In this document: positions 712 through 32,316 of the stretch, in pieces | Numbering within the stretch: position 1 is the stretch's first letter | Layout of the letters: each line of letters begins with the position of its first letter | Assembly (NCBI GenBank): GCA_019429445.1 | Contig: JAHYIW010000030.1 | Coordinates: 1-32,438 of the forward strand | Source of the DNA: Desulfuromonadaceae bacterium | GTDB taxonomy: Bacteria > Desulfobacterota > Desulfuromonadia > Desulfuromonadales > JAHYIW01 | Length of the DNA stretch: 32,438 bases | Reading direction: 5' to 3' | Notes under the pieces: generated by a model | What the model saw: the letters and a program-made list of their open reading frames with translations, nothing else | Databases searched by the model: none | Told to the model about the DNA's origin: nothing | Made by a program: the position numbers and the translations under genes

Positions 712-1980
712 TCATAGCGGTTTTTGCAAACGCCGTAAAACGCCTAATTGGCGCGCTGGTTCGACAGGAGCAACAATTCCAACCTGACGCAACAGTTCGG
801 GCACGCTTGCTGCGCAGGGAACACGTTTTGCTGCGGGACAAAGGGTATGGATCAAACGCACGCTTTTGAGTCCGTCAAACCAGCCGTGAAATGCACTGGC
901 GAACCTTTCCGGCGTTGCGTGGTTGTTCTGCAATCGCCCCCAAACGTCTTCAAAATTGGTCTCGTCAAGGAAATCACTCAGGCGCGGGTCGATCATCCGC
1001 GCCTGCTGCAACACTTCTGTGGCCGAATTTTTCCAGCCTGAGCGCGCGGCCTGTAGCCACTCCCTGAGCAGGCGATAAACATCCGGCGCATAAAAAAATG
1101 TCCCGTTATTCTCACCCGTGCGCAACTCCGCCACACTGTGGCCGGTCCCGAACGGGGTACGGCTCGACATCCGCGCCGAGGGGAAGACACAGGTGCCGCG
1201 CAGCGCTGAAACCCCGCAGGTCTTGACCAGTTGCTGCACAAAGTAAAAATCCTCCCCCGCCTGGCGACGATTCATCCCCCCCGCCGCGACATAGGCATCA
1301 ACGCGTACGGCAACAGTGCTACCGATTGTGTGCCAGGCATAAGGCGACCGTGCCAGCGTCAAACCCAACAAATGATGGCGCAGATAGAGCTCATAAAGAT
1401 CGATCGCCGCCTGTCCTGCAGAATCAGCCCCCCGGCGGTGACAAAAGGGGATCACCGCACCCCCGGCAGAAGCCGTCGCAAAGTGCTGCCTGATCGCCGC
1501 CAGATAGTTGCTCAGCACCAGCGTATCGGCATCAAGGCAGACCAGGACAGGAGGTGTCCTGACGTAGTCGCAACGTTGCAACGCCAGATCAAGCCCGATT
1601 TTGCGTGCCACCCCGACGCCGCCGTCCCCTGGCGCCAGTTCCCGCCCCGCCGACGCCGCATCGATCCACCCCAGCTTGAGCTGCGGATAACGGTGGGCGA
1701 AGCGGGGCAGCCGATCGAGCGTCGCCGCATTATCCCTTTTGTCAGCAACCGCCGCGTCCTCGCGTTGATTTATGACTACCAGCAGCAGAAACTGTTCGAG
1801 CAGTTCAGGCGGGTTTTTCGCCAGCCATTTTAGAGCAACAAAAAGCTCGGCACTCTCCGCCAGCGCCGGAATGACCACCGCGCCACAGAAATCGGTGCGT
1901 TCAGTTCCGGCAATATGCCATGGCCCGGCAATCGCCCGCCGCTCCAGATAACGCGCCACCGCTACCGGCAGAACACTCAC
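712..1980 (-). CDS. Family 2-like glycosyltransferase
   Basis: A 422-aa protein with a GT-A fold pattern: a beta strand GAVVIPAL near residues 33-40, a DAD metal/nucleotide-sugar motif at 150-152 (VLVCLDADT), and GEDFYF at 242-247, equivalent to the ED acceptor/base motif of GT2 enzymes. No membrane segments are obvious, so it is probably cytoplasmic. Donor and acceptor are unknown. The GTG start overlaps the miaA stop (GTGA, 4 nt), which indicates translational coupling to miaA and fixes this start. The C-terminal ~150 residues do not resemble a domain I recognise. The functional link with tRNA modification is unclear; the arrangement may be only an operon of convenience. Confidence 0.75.
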   Translation of the reverse strand: MSVLPVAVARYLERRAIAGPWHIAGTERTDFCGAVVIPALAESAELFVALKWLAKNPPELLEQFLLLVVINQREDAAVADKRDNAATLDRLPRFAHRYPQLKLGWIDAASAGRELAPGDGGVGVARKIGLDLALQRCDYVRTPPVLVCLDADTLVLSNYLAAIRQHFATASAGGAVIPFCHRRGADSAGQAAIDLYELYLRHHLLGLTLARSPYAWHTIGSTVAVRVDAYVAAGGMNRRQAGEDFYFVQQLVKTCGVSALRGTCVFPSARMSSRTPFGTGHSVAELRTGENNGTFFYAPDVYRLLREWLQAARSGWKNSATEVLQQARMIDPRLSDFLDETNFEDVWGRLQNNHATPERFASAFHGWFDGLKSVRLIHTLCPAAKRVPCAASVPELLRQVGIVAPVEPARQLGVLRRLQKPL

Positions 1981-2900
1981 CGCAGCGACTCAACAACGGC
2001 CAGCGCCGCCGCAAGCGGATCGCCAGCGCCGGCGACCCAGTGAATCGTCATCCCCTGCTTTTCCATCCGCCGGAACCAGGTTTCCTGCCGTTTGGCGAAG
2101 TGATGAATGGCACTGTTCAGTTTCTGAAAAAGGTCGTTGCGATTGAGCTGCCCTTGCAGATATTGAGCGACAAAACGGTATTCGAGCCCGTAGAATTCGA
2201 GCCGCGCCCACGGCACTCCGGCGGCATGGAGTGACGCAACCTCCTCGATCATCCCCCCATCCAGGCGCATACTCAGACGTCTGGTGATCCGCTCGCGGAG
2301 CAGCTTACGGTCCCAATGCACGCCGATAATCAATGGATTGATCAGCGGCGGCGCGGGCAGATGCTCCGCTGTATCTTGCTCGGCCAGCGCAATTTCAATC
2401 GCCCGGATCAACCGTTCGCGCTCAACCAGGTCGGTGCTGTTGTGCTGTTGCGGTCTGAGTTCGTGCAACCGGGCAGCCAACTGTGCATCGTCCAGCGCCG
2501 CCAACTCATCCCGCAGGGCGCGATTTAGTGGCGCGAGTACCAGCCGGTAACCACGCAACGCCGCCTCAAGATAGAGCCCGGTGCCGCCGACCAGCAGTGG
2601 CAACCGCCCGCGCGCACGAATCTCGGCAAACGCCTGATAGAACCGTTGCTGAAAATCGAAAACGCTGAATTCGCTCCCCGCAGCGACTATGTCGATCAGA
2701 TGATAAGGAATTTCCTCGTACTCGTCGCTATCCTTGCCACTGCCGATATCCATGCCACGATAGACCTGGCGCGAATCGGCAGAGATAATCTCACCATCCA
2801 ACGCCCGTGCCAGTTGCACGCCGAGACGGGTTTTACCACTGGCGGTGGGACCAAGGACGGTAAACAAATTAAAGGTGTTGGCAGAGGAATCCGGCATCAT
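1977..2900 (-). CDS. miaA: tRNA dimethylallyltransferase
   Basis: Transfers a dimethylallyl group to N6 of A37 in tRNAs that read UNN codons, the first step towards ms2i6A. The 307-aa length fits the family. Visible motifs are the P-loop GPTASGKT (17-24), ADSRQVYRGMDIG (about 41-53), the HLIDI strand, VGGTGLYLEAALRG, EFYGLEYR and the C-terminal FAKRQETWFR. The frame is open to a TTG at 2954, but family alignment favours the ATG pair at 2900/2897 just before the P-loop strand. The Shine-Dalgarno there is weak. The stop overlaps the start of the downstream glycosyltransferase. It is divergent from the DUF445 gene, with a 151-bp palindromic repeat between them. Confidence 0.95.
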   Translation of the reverse strand: MMPDSSANTFNLFTVLGPTASGKTRLGVQLARALDGEIISADSRQVYRGMDIGSGKDSDEYEEIPYHLIDIVAAGSEFSVFDFQQRFYQAFAEIRARGRLPLLVGGTGLYLEAALRGYRLVLAPLNRALRDELAALDDAQLAARLHELRPQQHNSTDLVERERLIRAIEIALAEQDTAEHLPAPPLINPLIIGVHWDRKLLRERITRRLSMRLDGGMIEEVASLHAAGVPWARLEFYGLEYRFVAQYLQGQLNRNDLFQKLNSAIHHFAKRQETWFRRMEKQGMTIHWVAGAGDPLAAALAVVESLR

Positions 2901-3004
2901 AGTCGCTACTTTATTGCGTTTACATTCTGAATGCAACACCTTGCCCCGCAACAACTTTCCCGCTATGATATCCGCTCTTCAACAAGACGGGAACGAATCA
3001 ATCA

Positions 3005-3155
3005 TGATGGCATCGCAAAAAGTCCGCCCTGCTGTGTTACGCCGGTTTTTCAGGACCTCGACCTACCTGATGTAGGTCTTCGCCCCTGAAAAACCACCAG
3101 GCCTTGTAGAACAAAATTTTTGCTTAGCCATCTAATTTTTTTTGCGAGTACATCA
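3005..3155 (+). repeat. 151-bp palindromic dispersed element, copy A
   Basis: Roughly 90% identical (by eye) to the reverse complement of 16357-16507, with the same 151-bp length. The ends form an imperfect terminal inverted repeat (TGATGGCATCGCAAAAA against TTTTTGCGAGTACATCA). An internal hairpin combines GGTTTTTCAGG/CCTGAAAAACC with GACCTAC/GTAGGTC around a CTGAT loop. It encodes no credible protein; the short peptide ending FFRTSTYLM read through it is an artefact. It sits between the divergent miaA and DUF445 genes and ends 4 bp before the DUF445 ATG. It is MITE- or REP-like in form. No transposase of matching ends is visible here. Confidence 0.8.
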
Positions 3156-3159
3156 ATTC

Positions 3160-4743
3160 ATGGAACACTATCTCCCCTGGCTGGTACCGCCGCTGCTCGG
3201 CGCACTGATCGGCTACGTCACCAACTACATCGCCATCAAGATGCTCTTCCGCCCGCTGAAAGCGTGGCGGATCTTTGGGCTGCACGTCCCGCTGACCCCC
3301 GGCATTATCCCCTCCAAACGCGGGGAACTGGCTCAACGAATGGGAAACACCGTCGGCGGCCACCTGCTGACCTCCGCAGATATTGGTGGCGCCCTGGAAA
3401 CAGCGACGTTCCGTCGCGAATTGCGCGGGGCGCTCCACGACCGGCTCGGCCATTTCCTCAACCGCGAACTCGCCCCCCCGGCGGCGCTGGTTCCAAAAGA
3501 GTACCGGGCGCGCTTCGACGAGCTGGTCCTTATCCTGCGCCGTAAATGTGTCGATGCCGTCGGCCAGTGGGTTGACAGCGCTGATTGCGAAGCCCGTCTG
3601 CGCAAATTTCTGGCGGCTAAAGAGCGCGAGCTTCTCGGTCGCGACCTGGAAAGTTTCATGACGCCCGAGCGCTTCGCCGCATTGTCTACCCACCTTGACG
3701 AGCGCATCGGGACGACGCTGCGTTCCGCTACCTTGACGATGGCCGTTGAGCAATTCGTCGATCGCCAGACCGACCGGCTCCTTTGCAGCGAGCGTTCCCT
3801 CAAGGAACTGTTGCCGGATGACTTATGCGAAACACTGATTGCCCAACTGGAAAAGGAGCTGCCGCCGCTCCTGGAAAAATTCGGTGGCATGCTCCATGAT
3901 CCGGCCTTTCGCAAACAGCTCACCACGCGGGCCAGAGAGGGGATCGAAAAATTCCTCGATTCTCTCGGCGGACTGACGGCGGTTCTGGCCGGGTTTTTCG
4001 ATATGGAAAAGGTCTACACTAAAATCCCCGACTTTCTTGATCAGGCCGGAGAAGAGGTTGCGATTTGGCTGCAACGCGCCGCAACCCAGGAGCAGGTGGC
4101 GGCCATGCTGCGTGAACGGATTAACGCATTTCTCGACCGCCCGCTGAAAAGTTATCTGGAAAAAATGCCGTTCGAAAAAGTCGCCGGGATGCGCACTTAC
4201 CTGCGGGCTCGTGTCATCACCCTGCTCCACGACCGGCGCACCACCGAACGCCTGGTTGGCCTGGCGGGAGCGGGGATTGAGCGCATCAAGGACCGCCCGT
4301 TTCACCAACTCCTCGACGGCATCCTCCCGCCACGGGGACGTGAGCGCATGCGGGATGCATTCGCCGACCGCCTGCTGGAGACCTTGCGCGCCCCGGCCAC
4401 CCGTCAGGCGTTCGACCGGTTCCTGGCCGACAAGTTCGACTACTGGCTCTACCAATGCCCTCTCGGTCACCTTGCCGCGCGGATTCCCGCCGATCTGCGT
4501 GAAGAGCTCGAGGAGGGGATCTATCTGCAACTGAAAGATGTCCTGCAGCAAGAAGTTCCCCCGTTGATCGACGCCCTCGATATTACCCGCATGGTCGAGA
4601 AAAAGGTCAACCAGCTCGACCTGCTCCAGGTGGAAGATCTGGTCCTCGGCATCATGAAGGAACAGTTCAAGTACATCAACCTCTTTGGCGGTCTGCTCGG
4701 TTTTCTGATCGGGCTGATGAACCTGTTTCTGTTGAAACTCTGA
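3160..4743 (+). CDS. DUF445 family membrane-anchored protein
   Basis: A 527-aa protein with a hydrophobic N-terminal segment (LPWLVPPLLGALIGYVTNYI, residues ~5-24), followed by AIKMLFRPLK and TPGIIPSKR, which are hallmarks of DUF445. A long charged, helical middle region precedes a C-terminal membrane segment (FGGLLGFLIGLMNLFLL). The topology therefore looks like two membrane anchors flanking a large soluble region. The biochemical role is not known to me. The frame extends to a TTG at 3142, but that lies inside the palindromic repeat; ATG 3160 is the natural start, although no clear ribosome-binding site precedes it. A flavoprotein gene follows 41 bp downstream on the same strand and may share its transcript. 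Confidence 0.85.
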   Translation: MEHYLPWLVPPLLGALIGYVTNYIAIKMLFRPLKAWRIFGLHVPLTPGIIPSKRGELAQRMGNTVGGHLLTSADIGGALETATFRRELRGALHDRLGHFLNRELAPPAALVPKEYRARFDELVLILRRKCVDAVGQWVDSADCEARLRKFLAAKERELLGRDLESFMTPERFAALSTHLDERIGTTLRSATLTMAVEQFVDRQTDRLLCSERSLKELLPDDLCETLIAQLEKELPPLLEKFGGMLHDPAFRKQLTTRAREGIEKFLDSLGGLTAVLAGFFDMEKVYTKIPDFLDQAGEEVAIWLQRAATQEQVAAMLRERINAFLDRPLKSYLEKMPFEKVAGMRTYLRARVITLLHDRRTTERLVGLAGAGIERIKDRPFHQLLDGILPPRGRERMRDAFADRLLETLRAPATRQAFDRFLADKFDYWLYQCPLGHLAARIPADLREELEEGIYLQLKDVLQQEVPPLIDALDITRMVEKKVNQLDLLQVEDLVLGIMKEQFKYINLFGGLLGFLIGLMNLFLLKL

Positions 4744-15891: not shown

Positions 15892-16290
15892 TTAATGCAG
15901 CGCACAGTTGTCGCCCTGGCAGCGCGTGCGTTTCGGCAGATATCTGCGGTAGCGGGCGAAGAGCGCATAACCGCACCTGGCCGCGCAGTGGATGCCGGGG
16001 AGGGCGATCACTTTGCCCAGCAATCGATAACCACGATTCGGCAGCGCCGACCAGATTTCCAGAAAAGCGTCAACACCGACATGAAAGTTGCCGACGGCGT
16101 CTTTGACGTGTATGCGGGCCATGAACGCACCCTGCGTGCGACCGTAAATGGCGGCATCGAAATCGGGGGCGGTGATATCGACAAATTGCAGACGTCCCTG
16201 ATGCTGCAAGCTGCGATAGTGGTCAATTTCTGTCGCGCAGACGATGCAGCTACCGTCGTAGTAGATAGTCAGAGGAAATTTTGTGTTCAT
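15892..16290 (-). CDS. DCC (DUF393) family thiol-oxidoreductase-like protein
   Basis: A 132-aa protein beginning LTIYYDGSCIVC, with D12, C15 and C18 giving the DxxCxxC signature of the DCC family, which is thought to have a thioredoxin-like fold. Substrate unknown. GGAG at 5-nt spacing supports ATG 16290. The frame stays open for 34 more codons, but these run into the 151-bp palindromic repeat and are not protein-coding. It is divergent from the RdgC-like gene. Confidence 0.82.
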   Translation of the reverse strand: MNTKFPLTIYYDGSCIVCATEIDHYRSLQHQGRLQFVDITAPDFDAAIYGRTQGAFMARIHVKDAVGNFHVGVDAFLEIWSALPNRGYRLLGKVIALPGIHCAARCGYALFARYRRYLPKRTRCQGDNCALH

Positions 16291-16356
16291 GCCGTCTCCG
16301 TAACTTGTGAAGGCTATTCTAAACCAATACATTATTTTTTCCACTACCGCAAAACT

Positions 16357-16507
16357 TGATGCACTCGCAAAAAAAATGAGGTCGCTAAGCAAAAATTTCG
16401 TCCTCCAAGGCTTGGTGGTTTTGCAGGGGCGAAGGCCTACATCAGGTAGGTCGAGGTCCTGAAAAACCAGCGTAACGCAGTAGGGCGGACTTTTTGCGAC
16501 GCCATCA
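16357..16507 (-). repeat. 151-bp palindromic dispersed element, copy B
   Basis: The reverse-complement partner of 3005-3155, same length, about 15 differences by eye. The central hairpin is kept, but one arm position differs (CCTGCAAAACC instead of CCTGAAAAACC) and GTAGGTC has become GTAGGCC. As with copy A it lies between two divergent genes (DCC protein and RdgC-like protein). Its end is 22 bp from the RdgC-like ATG, just before the Shine-Dalgarno. Confidence 0.8.
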
Positions 16508-16529
16508 AACTTAACCCGGAGGAATAGCT

Positions 16530-17696
16530 ATGGGTCTGCTCAGCAACACCACAAGTCTCTGTCAGTTTCACATCGTTGGCACCCCGCCGACTGATGACTT
16601 TTTCACCTGGGCCGGAGCCCGGCTCACGGCGCAGGGATTTCGTTCGATCGATGACTGTGCCGATGAGCTTTCCATGGGCTGGGTGCAGCTTGATGATACA
16701 CGTGACAGCACGTTTGAGGTGCGCGACACTTTTCAGCGGGACCATTACCTGACCTTTACCCTGCGGCGCGATCAGCGCCGGGTTCCGGCAGCGCTGCTCC
16801 GTGCACATTTCGAGCAGGCGCAGCGCGAATTCCTCACTGCACACCCCGGTTTGCAGCGTGTCCCAAAACAAAAAAAGGCTGATTTGCGCGAGGCGGTTTT
16901 TGGTAAACTGCTGGCCAGAACGTTACCCGCTCCGGCCTGTTACGATGTACTGTGGGATACGCGTAACGGCGTGGTGACGTTTGCCAACCTCGGTGGAAAG
17001 ATGGTTGATACCTTTGTCGAACTGTTCAAAAAAACCTTCGACGGGTTGCGGCTGGTGGCCATTCATCCTTATGCGCGGGCCGAAAGTCTGCTTGATGCGC
17101 CGTTACAGCACGCGTTGCGTGCGGCCAATGGTTCCGGGGCGACGACGGAACTTGACCTGATTCGCGAGTATCACTGGCTCGGCGCCGATTTTCTGCTCTG
17201 GCTGATGTATCAGACGATGAACGAATCATCCAGCTACGCGATCTGTCGTCCCGGTCCGGCAACTGTCGGGGAGGGGTTTGTTGCCTACCTGAATGACCGC
17301 CTGCAACTGGTTGGTGGTGGGGAAGCAGGGGCACAGAAGGTGACGGTGGCCGGGCCGCAGGACAGCTTCCGTGAAGTGTGCGTGGCACTCCAGTCAGGAA
17401 AACAAATGGCCGAGGCCCTGCTCTACTTCGAAAAGGGGGAGCATCAGTGGAAGCTGACCCTGAAAGGGACTCTCTTCCAGTTTGCCTCGTTCAAAGCGCC
17501 ATCAGTGCGCCTCGAACGCGACAACCTGACCGATCCCGACAGTGAACGCAACGCACTCTTTTATGAGCGGATGCACGTCATGGAAGAGGGGTTACAACTC
17601 TTCGACAGTCTGTATCGCATCTTCCTTGATCTGCGCCTGGGCACCAGCTGGGCAGCAGTGCGACAGCGCATTGACGCGTGGCTGGCCGCAGCGTAA
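16530..17696 (+). CDS. rdgC: RdgC-family recombination-associated protein
   Basis: A 388-aa protein. The N-terminal half shows the RdgC pattern: GFRSIDDCADELSMGWV, then KADLREAVFGKLLARTLPAPACYDV, WDTRNGVVTFANL and a VELFKKTF segment. E. coli RdgC (about 300 aa) forms a ring around double-stranded DNA and restrains RecA. Here the C-terminal half carries FLLWLMYQTMNESSSYAI and FVAYLNDRLQLVGGG, which I do not see in the E. coli protein, so it is a longer variant whose activity may differ. A clear GGAGGA site precedes the ATG. A 151-bp palindromic element lies immediately upstream, and a 15-bp perfect hairpin follows. Confidence 0.65.
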   Translation: MGLLSNTTSLCQFHIVGTPPTDDFFTWAGARLTAQGFRSIDDCADELSMGWVQLDDTRDSTFEVRDTFQRDHYLTFTLRRDQRRVPAALLRAHFEQAQREFLTAHPGLQRVPKQKKADLREAVFGKLLARTLPAPACYDVLWDTRNGVVTFANLGGKMVDTFVELFKKTFDGLRLVAIHPYARAESLLDAPLQHALRAANGSGATTELDLIREYHWLGADFLLWLMYQTMNESSSYAICRPGPATVGEGFVAYLNDRLQLVGGGEAGAQKVTVAGPQDSFREVCVALQSGKQMAEALLYFEKGEHQWKLTLKGTLFQFASFKAPSVRLERDNLTDPDSERNALFYERMHVMEEGLQLFDSLYRIFLDLRLGTSWAAVRQRIDAWLAAA

Positions 17697-30071: not shown

Positions 30072-30251
30072 TCAACGATACCTCTCTGCCTGCAAGGTGA
30101 AGAGGTAGGCGTACTGCCCGCCAAGAGACATCAGCTCGGCATGACTCCACCGCTCGACGATCCGCCCCTTAGCGATGACAACAATCTGATCGGCCATGCG
30201 CACAGTGGAGAAGCGGTGGGAGATCAGCACCGTCATCTTGCCACGACTTAA
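30072..30251 (-). pseudogene. 3' end of ABC exporter ATPase gene, cut by insertion sequence
   Basis: The minus strand encodes the last ~59 residues of an ABC transporter nucleotide-binding domain: LSRGKMTVLISHRFSTVRMAD, with the H-loop histidine, then QIVVIAKGRIVERWSHAEL, the usual D-loop-distal strand of exporter (MsbA/ABCB-like) ATPases, and a short C-terminus ending at a TGA (30072-30074). The 5' part, with Walker A/B and the membrane domain, is missing, because the IS begins at TTAA in the LS codons. The sequence on the other side of the IS does not continue the gene, so this is more than a simple clean insertion, or the remainder lies elsewhere in the assembly. Confidence 0.85.
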
Positions 30252-32316
30252 CCCACATTTAACACCCTGAATTATTTCTCCTGTAAAAACGGGATATTAC
30301 CATTTAAAAAAATCCGTCTGGCACTACATTCGCGTTTTTAAGCATCAGTTAATCAGTTTTTGGATTCCTCCCGGCGCGGCAGACAGGCCCAAGACGTCAT
30401 AGAGTCTCTTCAGTTTCGGTTCAGCGACCGTGGCCTTGCGGACATGGAGAGTTCGGCCATCCCGTTGCTTGAATGTCGCGGTAACCCGTTGCTGCACCGA
30501 AAAGGTCTCCCGTAATGTGCTCCAGCTATCCACGATGTCCCCGGTTTTCAGCTTTTGCCGCAGCGCCTGAACCGCTTGGTAGGCCAAAACGGTGATAAAC
30601 AGATGCCCTTCGGCCCGTTCTTCCTTGTGGTGATAGACCGGTCGTAACCCCAATTCTGATTTCAGGCTGCGAAAGACCGCTTCCAGATCGGTCAGCATGG
30701 TGTAGGTCCGCCATAAGGTGGCCTCATCCCAGTTCAGCTCGTTGGTGCGCAGGCAATAGACACCCGGGTGGGTCAGGAGTGTCCCGTCCACCGGCTGCTT
30801 TTCCCAGCTAAGGGCGACGGCGTTGGTGCCACTTTCATCCAGGATCAGCTCGACTGTGTAATGCTGCCCGATCCCGTGACTCTTCGCCTTGAGGCGCCCA
30901 ATCCTTTGCAGCAACTTCTCCGGCCGCTTCTCGTTGCGGGGTTTCTGGAGCCCTTCGGCCAGTTTGGTGAGCCCTTCTTCAAAGCGCCGGGTGAACTGTT
31001 CGGCCATCGCCGTCTCTTTCTCCTGGCGCTCTGGGGAGTGGCAGTACAGACGCACTTCCTTGCCGCCCTCGCTGAGAACCCGCTGAATCCGGATGGTCTG
31101 CTCGGATGCCGTGGTCGTTGCTACCGCCTGACTCTCGTCAAACTGACGCCTGCGCTCGCGACTGACCACCAGGTAGCGGTAATGATGTTCCACCAGCCAG
31201 GCGATATTGGCCTCGGTAGCGATCCCGGCGTCCATCACGACCAGTGCCCCCGGCGGGGTATCGAGCCCCCGCAGCATCCCTTCGAGGGTTTTCCCCTCAG
31301 AAACATTGCCCTCGAACATCTGTGAGCGCCGCACGAACCCGCTGCCGTCCAGCACCAATCCCAGAGTCACCAGCGGGCAGTCGCTTCGCTTCTCCTTGGA
31401 GCGACCACGGCGCGCCTTGGCATTGCCGGCCATCTCCCCTTCAAAATAGGTGTTGGTCAGATCGTAAAGGGTCACCGTTTCAGGAATCGTGAAGAGACTT
31501 TGGATTCGCGGAAACAGAGCTTCCTCAATGGCCTGCCGATGCCGCACCAGCAAATCGGACACCCGATACAAACGCATCAGCGGCATGGCTTCAAAATCGG
31601 TATCCAGAAGCTCGCCCAGAGCGCTGCGCTCCGTCAGCCAGCGATAGGTGGCCAGTTCACTTCCGGGGGCGGCCATCCGGCCGATGATGCTTCCCAGCGC
31701 CGCAGCCCTCTGGACACCATTGAACCCGACAGATTCAAGGATCTGCGGCATCTCCAGCCAGGAAAGAGCGCTCAATCCGACGTGCTCCACTCCGACCGAG
31801 CGAGGACGGACCAGTTCCAGAGAGTCGATATCGACTTCCTGATACTCCACTTCGGAACTCTCTTGAACCGGAGCGGCCGGTGCACTGAGAACCACAAGAC
31901 GTGCGGCATAACGCTGGGCCTCAACCTCAACCTCGGCGGATTCAGGCAAAAATGCTTCTTGTCCGGAGAGGATCTGATCAATCCGCGCACACAGCTGAGG
32001 CCAATGTTCCTTCGGCAGGGAAAAGTTCCTCCCCAGGTTCAGCAAAGTGCGTTGCTTGACCTTCGTACCGACCCGCTCCGAGGCGACCAGGCGAAAGGTG
32101 TAGTAGTCTTCGCCATTTTTTGAGCTTCTGGTTTTTGTTTGTCGAATATACATGGAGACAGGGTGGCACAAGCCAGACTTCATGTCAACAACAAAATACT
32201 TTTTATGGCACTACAATCAAGAGTAAAAAACTAAGTTGCTGAAATCATTTAGTTTATTTTTTGAAAAACCCAAATTTCCCTCAAAATACTAGACAAAATG
32301 TTAAATATGGGTTAAG
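30247..32316 (-). mobile_element. IS1634-family insertion sequence
   Basis: A complete element of about 2.07 kb. The ends share the inverted repeat CTTAACCCAYATTTAACA (left 30247-30264; right as reverse complement of 32299-32316), with one mismatch in 18. Both ends include TTAA (30248-30251 and 32312-32315), which could be part of the repeat or a 4-bp palindromic target duplication; in the latter case the element is 30252-32311. It holds one intact transposase gene. It interrupts an ABC exporter gene on its left and meets the contig-end repeat on its right. Confidence 0.85.
30345..32153 (-). CDS. IS1634-family transposase
   Basis: A 602-aa DDE transposase related to the IS4 superfamily. The N-terminus MYIRQTKTRSSKNGEDYYTF is typical of the family. 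YDLTNTYFEGEMAGN carries the first catalytic Asp, LVVMDAGIATEANIAWL the second, and the C-terminal block TDLEAVFRSLKSELGLRPVYH the Glu with the surrounding Y-R-E-K-type signature; EGHLFITVLAYQAVQALR follows. The frame is intact and full length, so the element may be active. ATG 32153 matches the family start; an ATG 30 nt upstream is also in frame. Neither has a clear Shine-Dalgarno, as expected for low transposase expression. Confidence 0.93.
   Translation of the reverse strand: MYIRQTKTRSSKNGEDYYTFRLVASERVGTKVKQRTLLNLGRNFSLPKEHWPQLCARIDQILSGQEAFLPESAEVEVEAQRYAARLVVLSAPAAPVQESSEVEYQEVDIDSLELVRPRSVGVEHVGLSALSWLEMPQILESVGFNGVQRAAALGSIIGRMAAPGSELATYRWLTERSALGELLDTDFEAMPLMRLYRVSDLLVRHRQAIEEALFPRIQSLFTIPETVTLYDLTNTYFEGEMAGNAKARRGRSKEKRSDCPLVTLGLVLDGSGFVRRSQMFEGNVSEGKTLEGMLRGLDTPPGALVVMDAGIATEANIAWLVEHHYRYLVVSRERRRQFDESQAVATTTASEQTIRIQRVLSEGGKEVRLYCHSPERQEKETAMAEQFTRRFEEGLTKLAEGLQKPRNEKRPEKLLQRIGRLKAKSHGIGQHYTVELILDESGTNAVALSWEKQPVDGTLLTHPGVYCLRTNELNWDEATLWRTYTMLTDLEAVFRSLKSELGLRPVYHHKEERAEGHLFITVLAYQAVQALRQKLKTGDIVDSWSTLRETFSVQQRVTATFKQRDGRTLHVRKATVAEPKLKRLYDVLGLSAAPGGIQKLIN

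Follow-up and report, generated by a model that had tools for sequence, protein, structure and literature searches.

The contig studied here carries two copies of a palindromic sequence of about 150 bp, each next to a start codon, which raises the question of whether this is a mobile element or a sequence that serves the neighbouring genes. The window, i.e. the whole stretch of 32,438 nucleotides that was analysed, is contig 30 of the genome of a Desulfuromonadaceae bacterium (2.9 Mb in 64 contigs; hereafter the own genome or G000). A first-pass annotation made from the sequence alone had described an element of 151 bp and had proposed either a non-autonomous mobile element (MITE) or a domesticated regulatory or structured-RNA element. 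The best explanation overall is a non-autonomous, MITE-like DNA transposable element of about 150 bp (probability about 0.8), which is supported by the many copies, by target duplications of 6 bp, by the empty site of one copy in the relative G001 and by a patchy distribution within genera.

Borders, anatomy and copy number

The two copies in the window are about 91% identical, close to the 90% estimated previously. Copy 1 is located on the plus strand (3006..3154) and occupies the same place in G001. Copy 2 is located on the minus strand (16358..16506), and G001 has an empty site there. Both copies are 149 bp long rather than 151 bp, because the borders are set by target duplications: AATCAT to the left of copy 1 (3000..3005) and AAACTT on the low (16352..16357) and high (16507..16512) sides of copy 2. 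The right flank of copy 1, AATTCAT (3155-3161), has one T more than AATCAT, which flanks the G001 orthologue on both sides. As described before, the terminal inverted repeats are imperfect, with 13 of 16 positions matching (GATGGCGTCGCAAAAA / GATGCACTCGCAAAAA). The strong hairpin arms GGTTTTTCAGG/CCTGAAAAACC are exact in copy 1, but there is one mismatch in copy 2 (CCTGCAAAACC).

Copy 1 is flanked by a gene for an IPP transferase of the MiaA type (1977..2954, minus strand; PF01715) and by a DUF445 gene (3160..4743, plus strand), the open reading frame (ORF) of which was listed from TTG 3142. The neighbours of copy 2 are a DCC1-like thiol-disulfide oxidoreductase gene (15892..16290, minus strand; PF04134) and an RdgC-like gene (16530..17696, plus strand; PF04381). 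Both copies indeed lie next to start codons, but the element ends 5 bp and 23 bp upstream of the ATGs of the DUF445 (3160) and RdgC-like (16530) genes and not 4 bp and 22 bp. Moreover, the reading FFRTSTYLM followed by a stop codon, which had been expected to yield spurious peptides, is present in the sequence, and an annotation rule for the repeat family would keep gene callers from naming such peptides inside the copies.

It had been argued that two copies in 32 kb imply many in the genome, and this turned out to be correct. A blastn search of the own genome gave at least 43 matches at E ≤ 0.001, fragments included, among the 40 of 88 candidates that were scored. The exact end motif GATGNNNTCGCAAAAA occurs 57 times in forward and 57 times in reverse orientation, whereas its reversed control does not occur in either; the repeat is thus far beyond chance. 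A structure model of the core yielded 68 matches at E ≤ 0.001 and 65 at E ≤ 1e-6. The family thus comprises about 60-68 copies in this genome. With at most two mismatches allowed per end, 57 copies could be extracted with both ends, 37 of which are 150 bp and eight 149 bp long; the other 12 range from 106 to 340 bp. The repeat is therefore short, non-coding and multicopy, with 45 of 57 copies measuring 149-150 bp, and has terminal inverted repeats, as is characteristic of MITEs.

The element starts with the left end GATGGCGTCGCAAAAAGTCC, which is followed by a hairpin. An inner right end, TTTTTGCTTAGCCATC, closes the hairpin at position 127, and a 23-bp extension beyond it leads to the outer right end TTTTTGCGAGTGCATC. 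Thus, the right end bears two end-like motifs, and since the inner one lies 23 bp inside the right end, the true palindrome consists of the left 127 bp. In copy 1, the hairpin corresponds to 3006..3132 and the right-end extension, which bears the outer end TTTTTTTTGCGAGTACATC, to 3133..3154 (both plus strand); the hairpin of copy 2 is located at 16380..16506 (minus strand). Head-to-tail tandem copies were observed at three places (G000 C12:67349-67745, G000 C23:19067-19318 and G023 C1:1258513-1258949). By eye, deletion derivatives of about 40 bp that have both ends and lack the hairpin were recognised at L168, L173, L176, L177, L192 and L097 (700-745), some of which are still flanked by a target duplication. 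Furthermore, a lone right end (L083 5900-6030) adjoins a GTGTTCTTC microsatellite.

Insertion sites and the search for a transposase

The strongest evidence for mobility comes from the flanks of the copies. An exact 6-bp target duplication is present at 28 of the 57 own copies, while 300 shuffles gave a mean of 0.89 and a maximum of 4. Among 56 distinct copies from other genomes, 27 have an exact 6-bp duplication (shuffled mean 0.64, maximum 3; these shuffles were run on 58 rows, two of which represent the same copy in both orientations). Exact duplications of other lengths are rare in the own and the other genomes, respectively (5 bp, 1 and 1; 7 bp, 5 and 5; 8 bp, 0 and 0). One base separates a further 12 own copies and four copies of other genomes from a 6-bp duplication; others of the 29 own copies without an exact duplication show shifts. 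The 28 exact own duplications begin with A in 26 cases and end with T in 26 cases; to their right, G follows in 23 and then A in 20 cases, and to their left, T stands in 16 and C in 12 cases. These base counts give ANNNNT|GA as the preferred target, along with a weaker preference for TC on the opposite side. With the simple ORF caller used here, an upstream ORF closes at a TGA made of the flanking T and the first bases, GA, of the element at L010, L017, L020, L025 and L153.

The close relative G001, which is 96-97% identical to G000 over the region, lacks copy 2. At the one empty site examined, G001 has GCAAAACTTAACC, where G000 has GCAAAACTT, the element and AAACTTAACC. Within the intergenic region that contains this site (window position 16357), G001 contig 27 (L134) carries a different palindromic element of 159 bp with 16-bp ends (TACCCTGTAACCCATA).

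Could the family be old and static, with copies spreading only by recombination and descent? By blastn, the identity of the own copies with copy 1 is 88-95%, and the family is therefore not young. Moreover, one of the seven G001 copies with both ends has flanks matching two different G000 copies (L031 with L005 and L010), and another has only one flank in common with a G000 copy (L140 with L102), which suggests either exchange between copies or misassembly of the draft genomes. However, about half of the copies have exact target duplications and the insertion of copy 2 is missing from a 96%-identical relative, so that a purely static family is highly improbable. For the mobile element favoured here, the following route can be envisaged. 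A recombinase, putatively of the DDE type and supplied in trans, would bind the end motifs, i.e. GATGGCGTCGCAAAAA on the left and two such motifs spaced by 23 bp on the right, make cuts in the target that are staggered by 6 nt, and then insert the element. The copies also mark places where genomes may rearrange.

The check for a transposase with matching ends, which had been recommended in the first-pass annotation, did not identify an autonomous element among 60 stretches judged by end pairs, 20 of which are from the own genome (most of them around seemingly single ends) and 40 from five other genomes. Between 13 far-apart end pairs there are 29 ORFs, and the 20 that were scanned are mostly ordinary genes, none of them a transposase framed by the ends. 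Neither the ISNCY_2 nor the IS1634 transposase matches are framed by the ends of the element. One of the scanned ORFs is an IS91 (Y2)-type transposase, found together with an integrase gene (L185), but it has no second end adjoining, as the apparent one is a three-mismatch match within the gene. An IS1634 element of G037 (L319), which lies a few hundred bp from a complete copy (L319 3021-3173), was taken as neighbourhood only. In the own genome, weak end-like matches close to a broken IS4/IS1634-like gene (L328) did not look like ends. The window itself contains an IS1634-family transposase gene (30345-32183, minus strand) within 30247-32316, with inverted repeats CTTAACCCACATTT that are unlike the ends of the element; by eye, this insertion seems to interrupt a transporter-like gene.

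The folded core and the fate of single copies

The 127-bp body of copy 1 folds at -58.7 kcal/mol on the minus strand (z -7.5) and at -44.9 kcal/mol on the plus strand (z -5.6), and none of 200 shuffles folds as well on either strand. For copy 2, the better strand reaches -53.6 kcal/mol (z -4.9); the other has a z of only -1.6, with 18 of 200 shuffles folding equally well. The stems are interrupted by the conserved core motifs GCGTT/GCCTTG and CGAC/GCCT, and an alignment of 18 sequences from two subfamilies holds GCGTT, CGAC, GCCT and GCCTTG in place (covariation 0.301 vs at most 0.095 when the alignment was slid). From this alignment the model R1 was built. A widened alignment of 19 distinct sequences, 13 of which were chosen from the R1 matches in the phylum, gave the model R2. 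Because an automatic RNAalifold run on the subfamily-1 alignment yielded a poor structure, the pairs were set by hand, and the pair counts hence lean toward that structure; in the widened alignment, 88.6% of the cells are paired and 15 of 19 pairs show double changes, with 47 doubly changed cells vs 13.5 in shuffled alignments (0 of 500 shuffles as high) and a covariation of 0.371 vs at most 0.150 in slid ones. The compensatory changes that the first-pass annotation had suggested looking for are thus present, and the pairing of the core is kept by them across the order and the phylum, also behind other ends. Rfam has no match in the window, and with copy 1 as query at E ≤ 10 only two matches appeared, far below the gathering scores.

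A structure kept in this way could also belong to a domesticated regulatory or structured-RNA element that acts on its neighbours, for instance as a UTR hairpin, an RNase site, a terminator or an insulator. Besides the compensatory changes, the A5 and T5 tracts that flank the hairpin and the reported effects of ERIC and Correia hairpins on transcripts (PMC10969869) would fit such a role, and so would the better folding of one strand, the one that reads CAAGGC..AACGCA, in 37 of 40 genomes. However, these genomes are related by descent and the strand preference is not independent between them. Furthermore, the copies occur in all gene contexts. According to the simple ORF caller (ORFs of at least 90 aa), 55 of the 57 own copies lie outside ORFs, and the other two fall within ORFs that are weak (99 and 125 aa). 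The location between divergent genes noted for both window copies applies to only 14 of the 55 classifiable own copies, while 19 + 13 lie between genes of the same direction and nine between convergent ones; a specificity for divergent promoters was therefore rejected. A scan of both window copies found no promoter-like or terminator-like match, and the element was rejected as a terminator.

Shared copies also speak against domestication. Seven G001 copies with both ends were compared, and for two of them a G000 copy has the same flanks on both sides. Both of these copies have changed more than their flanks, which are partly coding and hence no neutral yardstick. Copy 1 is 91.3% identical between G000 and G001 (11 mismatches, 2 gaps), whereas its 600-bp flanks are 95.8 and 96.3% identical; the L025/L158 pair is 92.6% identical outside an insert, with flanks of 96.0 and 97.5%. 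Domestication is therefore not supported, and a role for the neighbours is unlikely: the proposal of a structured nucleic acid stood, the proposal of a regulator did not. The fixed copies do not look protected, and the family keeps its fold across the phylum. This is most simply read as selection that acts while the element propagates and not on every single copy. In the transposition route outlined above, the core would be retained because, as a folded single strand of RNA or DNA, it may matter in propagation, given that copies drift once they are fixed, whereas the family as a whole is conserved.

A better-folding strand would fit RNA, but this test is weak, as the genomes are not independent. 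At the paired positions of 62 equal-length copies, A.C (154) outnumbers G.T (24); two constant columns account for 106 of the A.C, leaving 48 A.C vs 24 G.T. Since the A.C excess mostly stems from two columns and the genomes share descent, a decision for RNA rather than DNA from the strand bias was rejected.

Some copies contain inserts. A 92-bp cargo with two hairpins is found at the same site in three copies of the own genome (L003 1256-1495, L097 10545-10786 and L101 998-1239). The resulting 242-bp form was discarded as proof of copying, as the cargo is 100% identical and the rest of the copies differ. An identical cargo at the same site of three diverged copies points to a younger nested element, and the cargo is probably a mobile element that targets the repeat. 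A second nested insert, which is longer (about 190 bp) and has GTAACTRTTCA-like ends, is present in one copy of the own genome (L089 1101-1440) and one of G001 (L158 1535-1873), at different places of the element.

Distribution, other ends and relationship to known repeats

The search of the whole genome and its relatives, which had been proposed as a check, revealed that the family is multicopy in the own genome and also occurs in relatives. At least 24 of the 58 genomes of the order, the own genome included, gave blastn matches with up to 14 candidates scored per genome. Under the same limit, the matches listed for genus g14 were none in G014, at least eight in G030 and none in G050, and those for genus g3 none in G003, at least 15 in G044 and at least two in G052. 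The exact end motif was found in 38 of the 58 genomes, its reversed control once in one genome. In four genomes that have end motifs but in which blastn matches are sparse or weak (G024, G027, G008 and G005), most of 30 inspected loci belong to a second subfamily that has the same ends and layout and different stem sequences. The model R2 finds the core in 42 of the 58 genomes of the order, and R1 finds it in 60 of a sample of 198 genomes of the phylum, the own genome included.

The core is also associated with other ends. Five genomes have core matches without any exact GATGNNNTCGCAAAAA end (G004, 33; G012, 20; G028, 38; G009, 7; G045, 10), and in 30 of their loci the core lies behind GGCTGATGAAAAA-, GGCGGCTGAAA- or similar ends where it could be placed, the placement having failed or gone astray in several of them. 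From 56 loci, i.e. these 30 and 26 from the phylum search, 24 elements with GGC-type ends were extracted, and no target duplication was detected at any of them at any offset or length tried. The insertion mechanism may thus apply to only part of the superfamily. Of nine extracted members that have TCGTAAAAA-type ends, three show, by eye, exact 6-bp duplications, two are one base off and one has an exact duplication of 7 bp.

The GGC-ended members without target duplication, together with the palindromic, intergenic and sometimes tandem nature of the repeat, recall REP/REPIN-type repeats, which are short palindromes with a GTAG/CGTC tag and are moved by a RAYT (Y1) transposase. However, the 6-bp target duplications of the GATG-ended members do not fit this explanation, and at about 150 bp these members are longer than REPs, for which 20-40 bp are stated (PMC3733652). 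A REP/REPIN origin thus appears very improbable. Within the reading as a transposable element, we tentatively propose that what lasts is the ancient folded core rather than the ends; as a functional RNA or single-stranded DNA module, it might have been passed between mobilisation systems and might help its carriers spread. This is plausible, if short of probable. If true, a single core with its conserved internal-loop motifs would be combined with differing ends and target behaviour across Desulfobacterota and Enterobacteria: 6-bp duplications for GATG-ended elements, no detectable ones for GGC-ended elements and the TA reported for ERIC. With its clean duplications, its covariation and its interchangeable ends, a set that spans the phylum would allow a comparison that can separate end-linked from core-linked parts.

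ERIC (RU-1/IRU), a 127-bp enterobacterial MITE, resembles the element in its size class, its intergenic location, its one long hairpin and the order of its core motifs (TGCGTT .. TTAC/GTAA .. GCCGCCTTGC). The ERIC consensus in Table 1a of PMC2759123 aligns with the whole of a G036 core, one of a panel of 31 cores chosen by the author from those at hand, with a score of 61, which tops 1500 dinucleotide shuffles (maximum 53) and 1500 hairpin-preserving shuffles (maximum 54), and it does so in one orientation only (61 vs 26). Four ERIC copies, of which two represent one and the same locus of E. coli, reach scores of 48-50, compared to a maximum of 41 for 1073 overlapping windows of real sequence. 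The window's own subfamily has a mean score of 22 against ERIC, which is less than the best scores of the null average, and the models R2 and R3, both built without ERIC, hit the right stretch of ERIC copies with only 6.7-9.6 bits, which is not significant and lies among or below the background. Moreover, ERIC has TATACCC-type ends and reported TA duplications (PMC2759123), whereas the element described here has the ends GATGGCGTCGCAAAAA / TTTTTGCGAGTGCATC and a 6-bp duplication. Judged by these alignments, the core of other superfamily members is likely but unproven to be related to ERIC, with convergence of hairpins as the alternative. The 159-bp TACCC element of G001 was not accepted as a relative of the core; its scores (10.6 bits, E 0.19; 11.4 bits, E 0.5; alignment score 38 vs a null maximum of 41) are suggestive only.

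By description, Correia/NEMIS, YPAL/RU-2 and RUP are likewise small, protein-less, hairpin-forming and mostly intergenic, and terminal inverted repeats and target duplications are listed for Correia/NEMIS and RUP (PMC2229807). Four of the seven bacterial MITE families tabled in the same source have TA termini, whereas the family described here has a 6-bp duplication. In the same broad group of bacteria, Geobacter metallireducens and G. bemidjiensis are reported to have multicopy palindromic sequences, and Pelobacter carbinolicus to have multicopy sequences (PMC2700814, PMC2996986, PMC3543383). Compared by description, they are also largely intergenic, and as their alignments are in supplements, parts of the family may have been drawn before. 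No published description of the repeat family was found in the literature searched, supplements excepted. MITE-like elements are a known kind; what we would call new is that elements with different ends share a core, and that this core resembles ERIC.

Plasmid records contain no match for the window element, the class-3 consensus or subfamily 2. Phage records have none for the window element or the class-3 consensus. In viral contigs, one stretch matched, and a subfamily-2 pattern gave no match. This 42-kb viral contig starts inside one copy and contains a partial second copy (L082 1-110), and by eye the nearby ORFs look phage-like.
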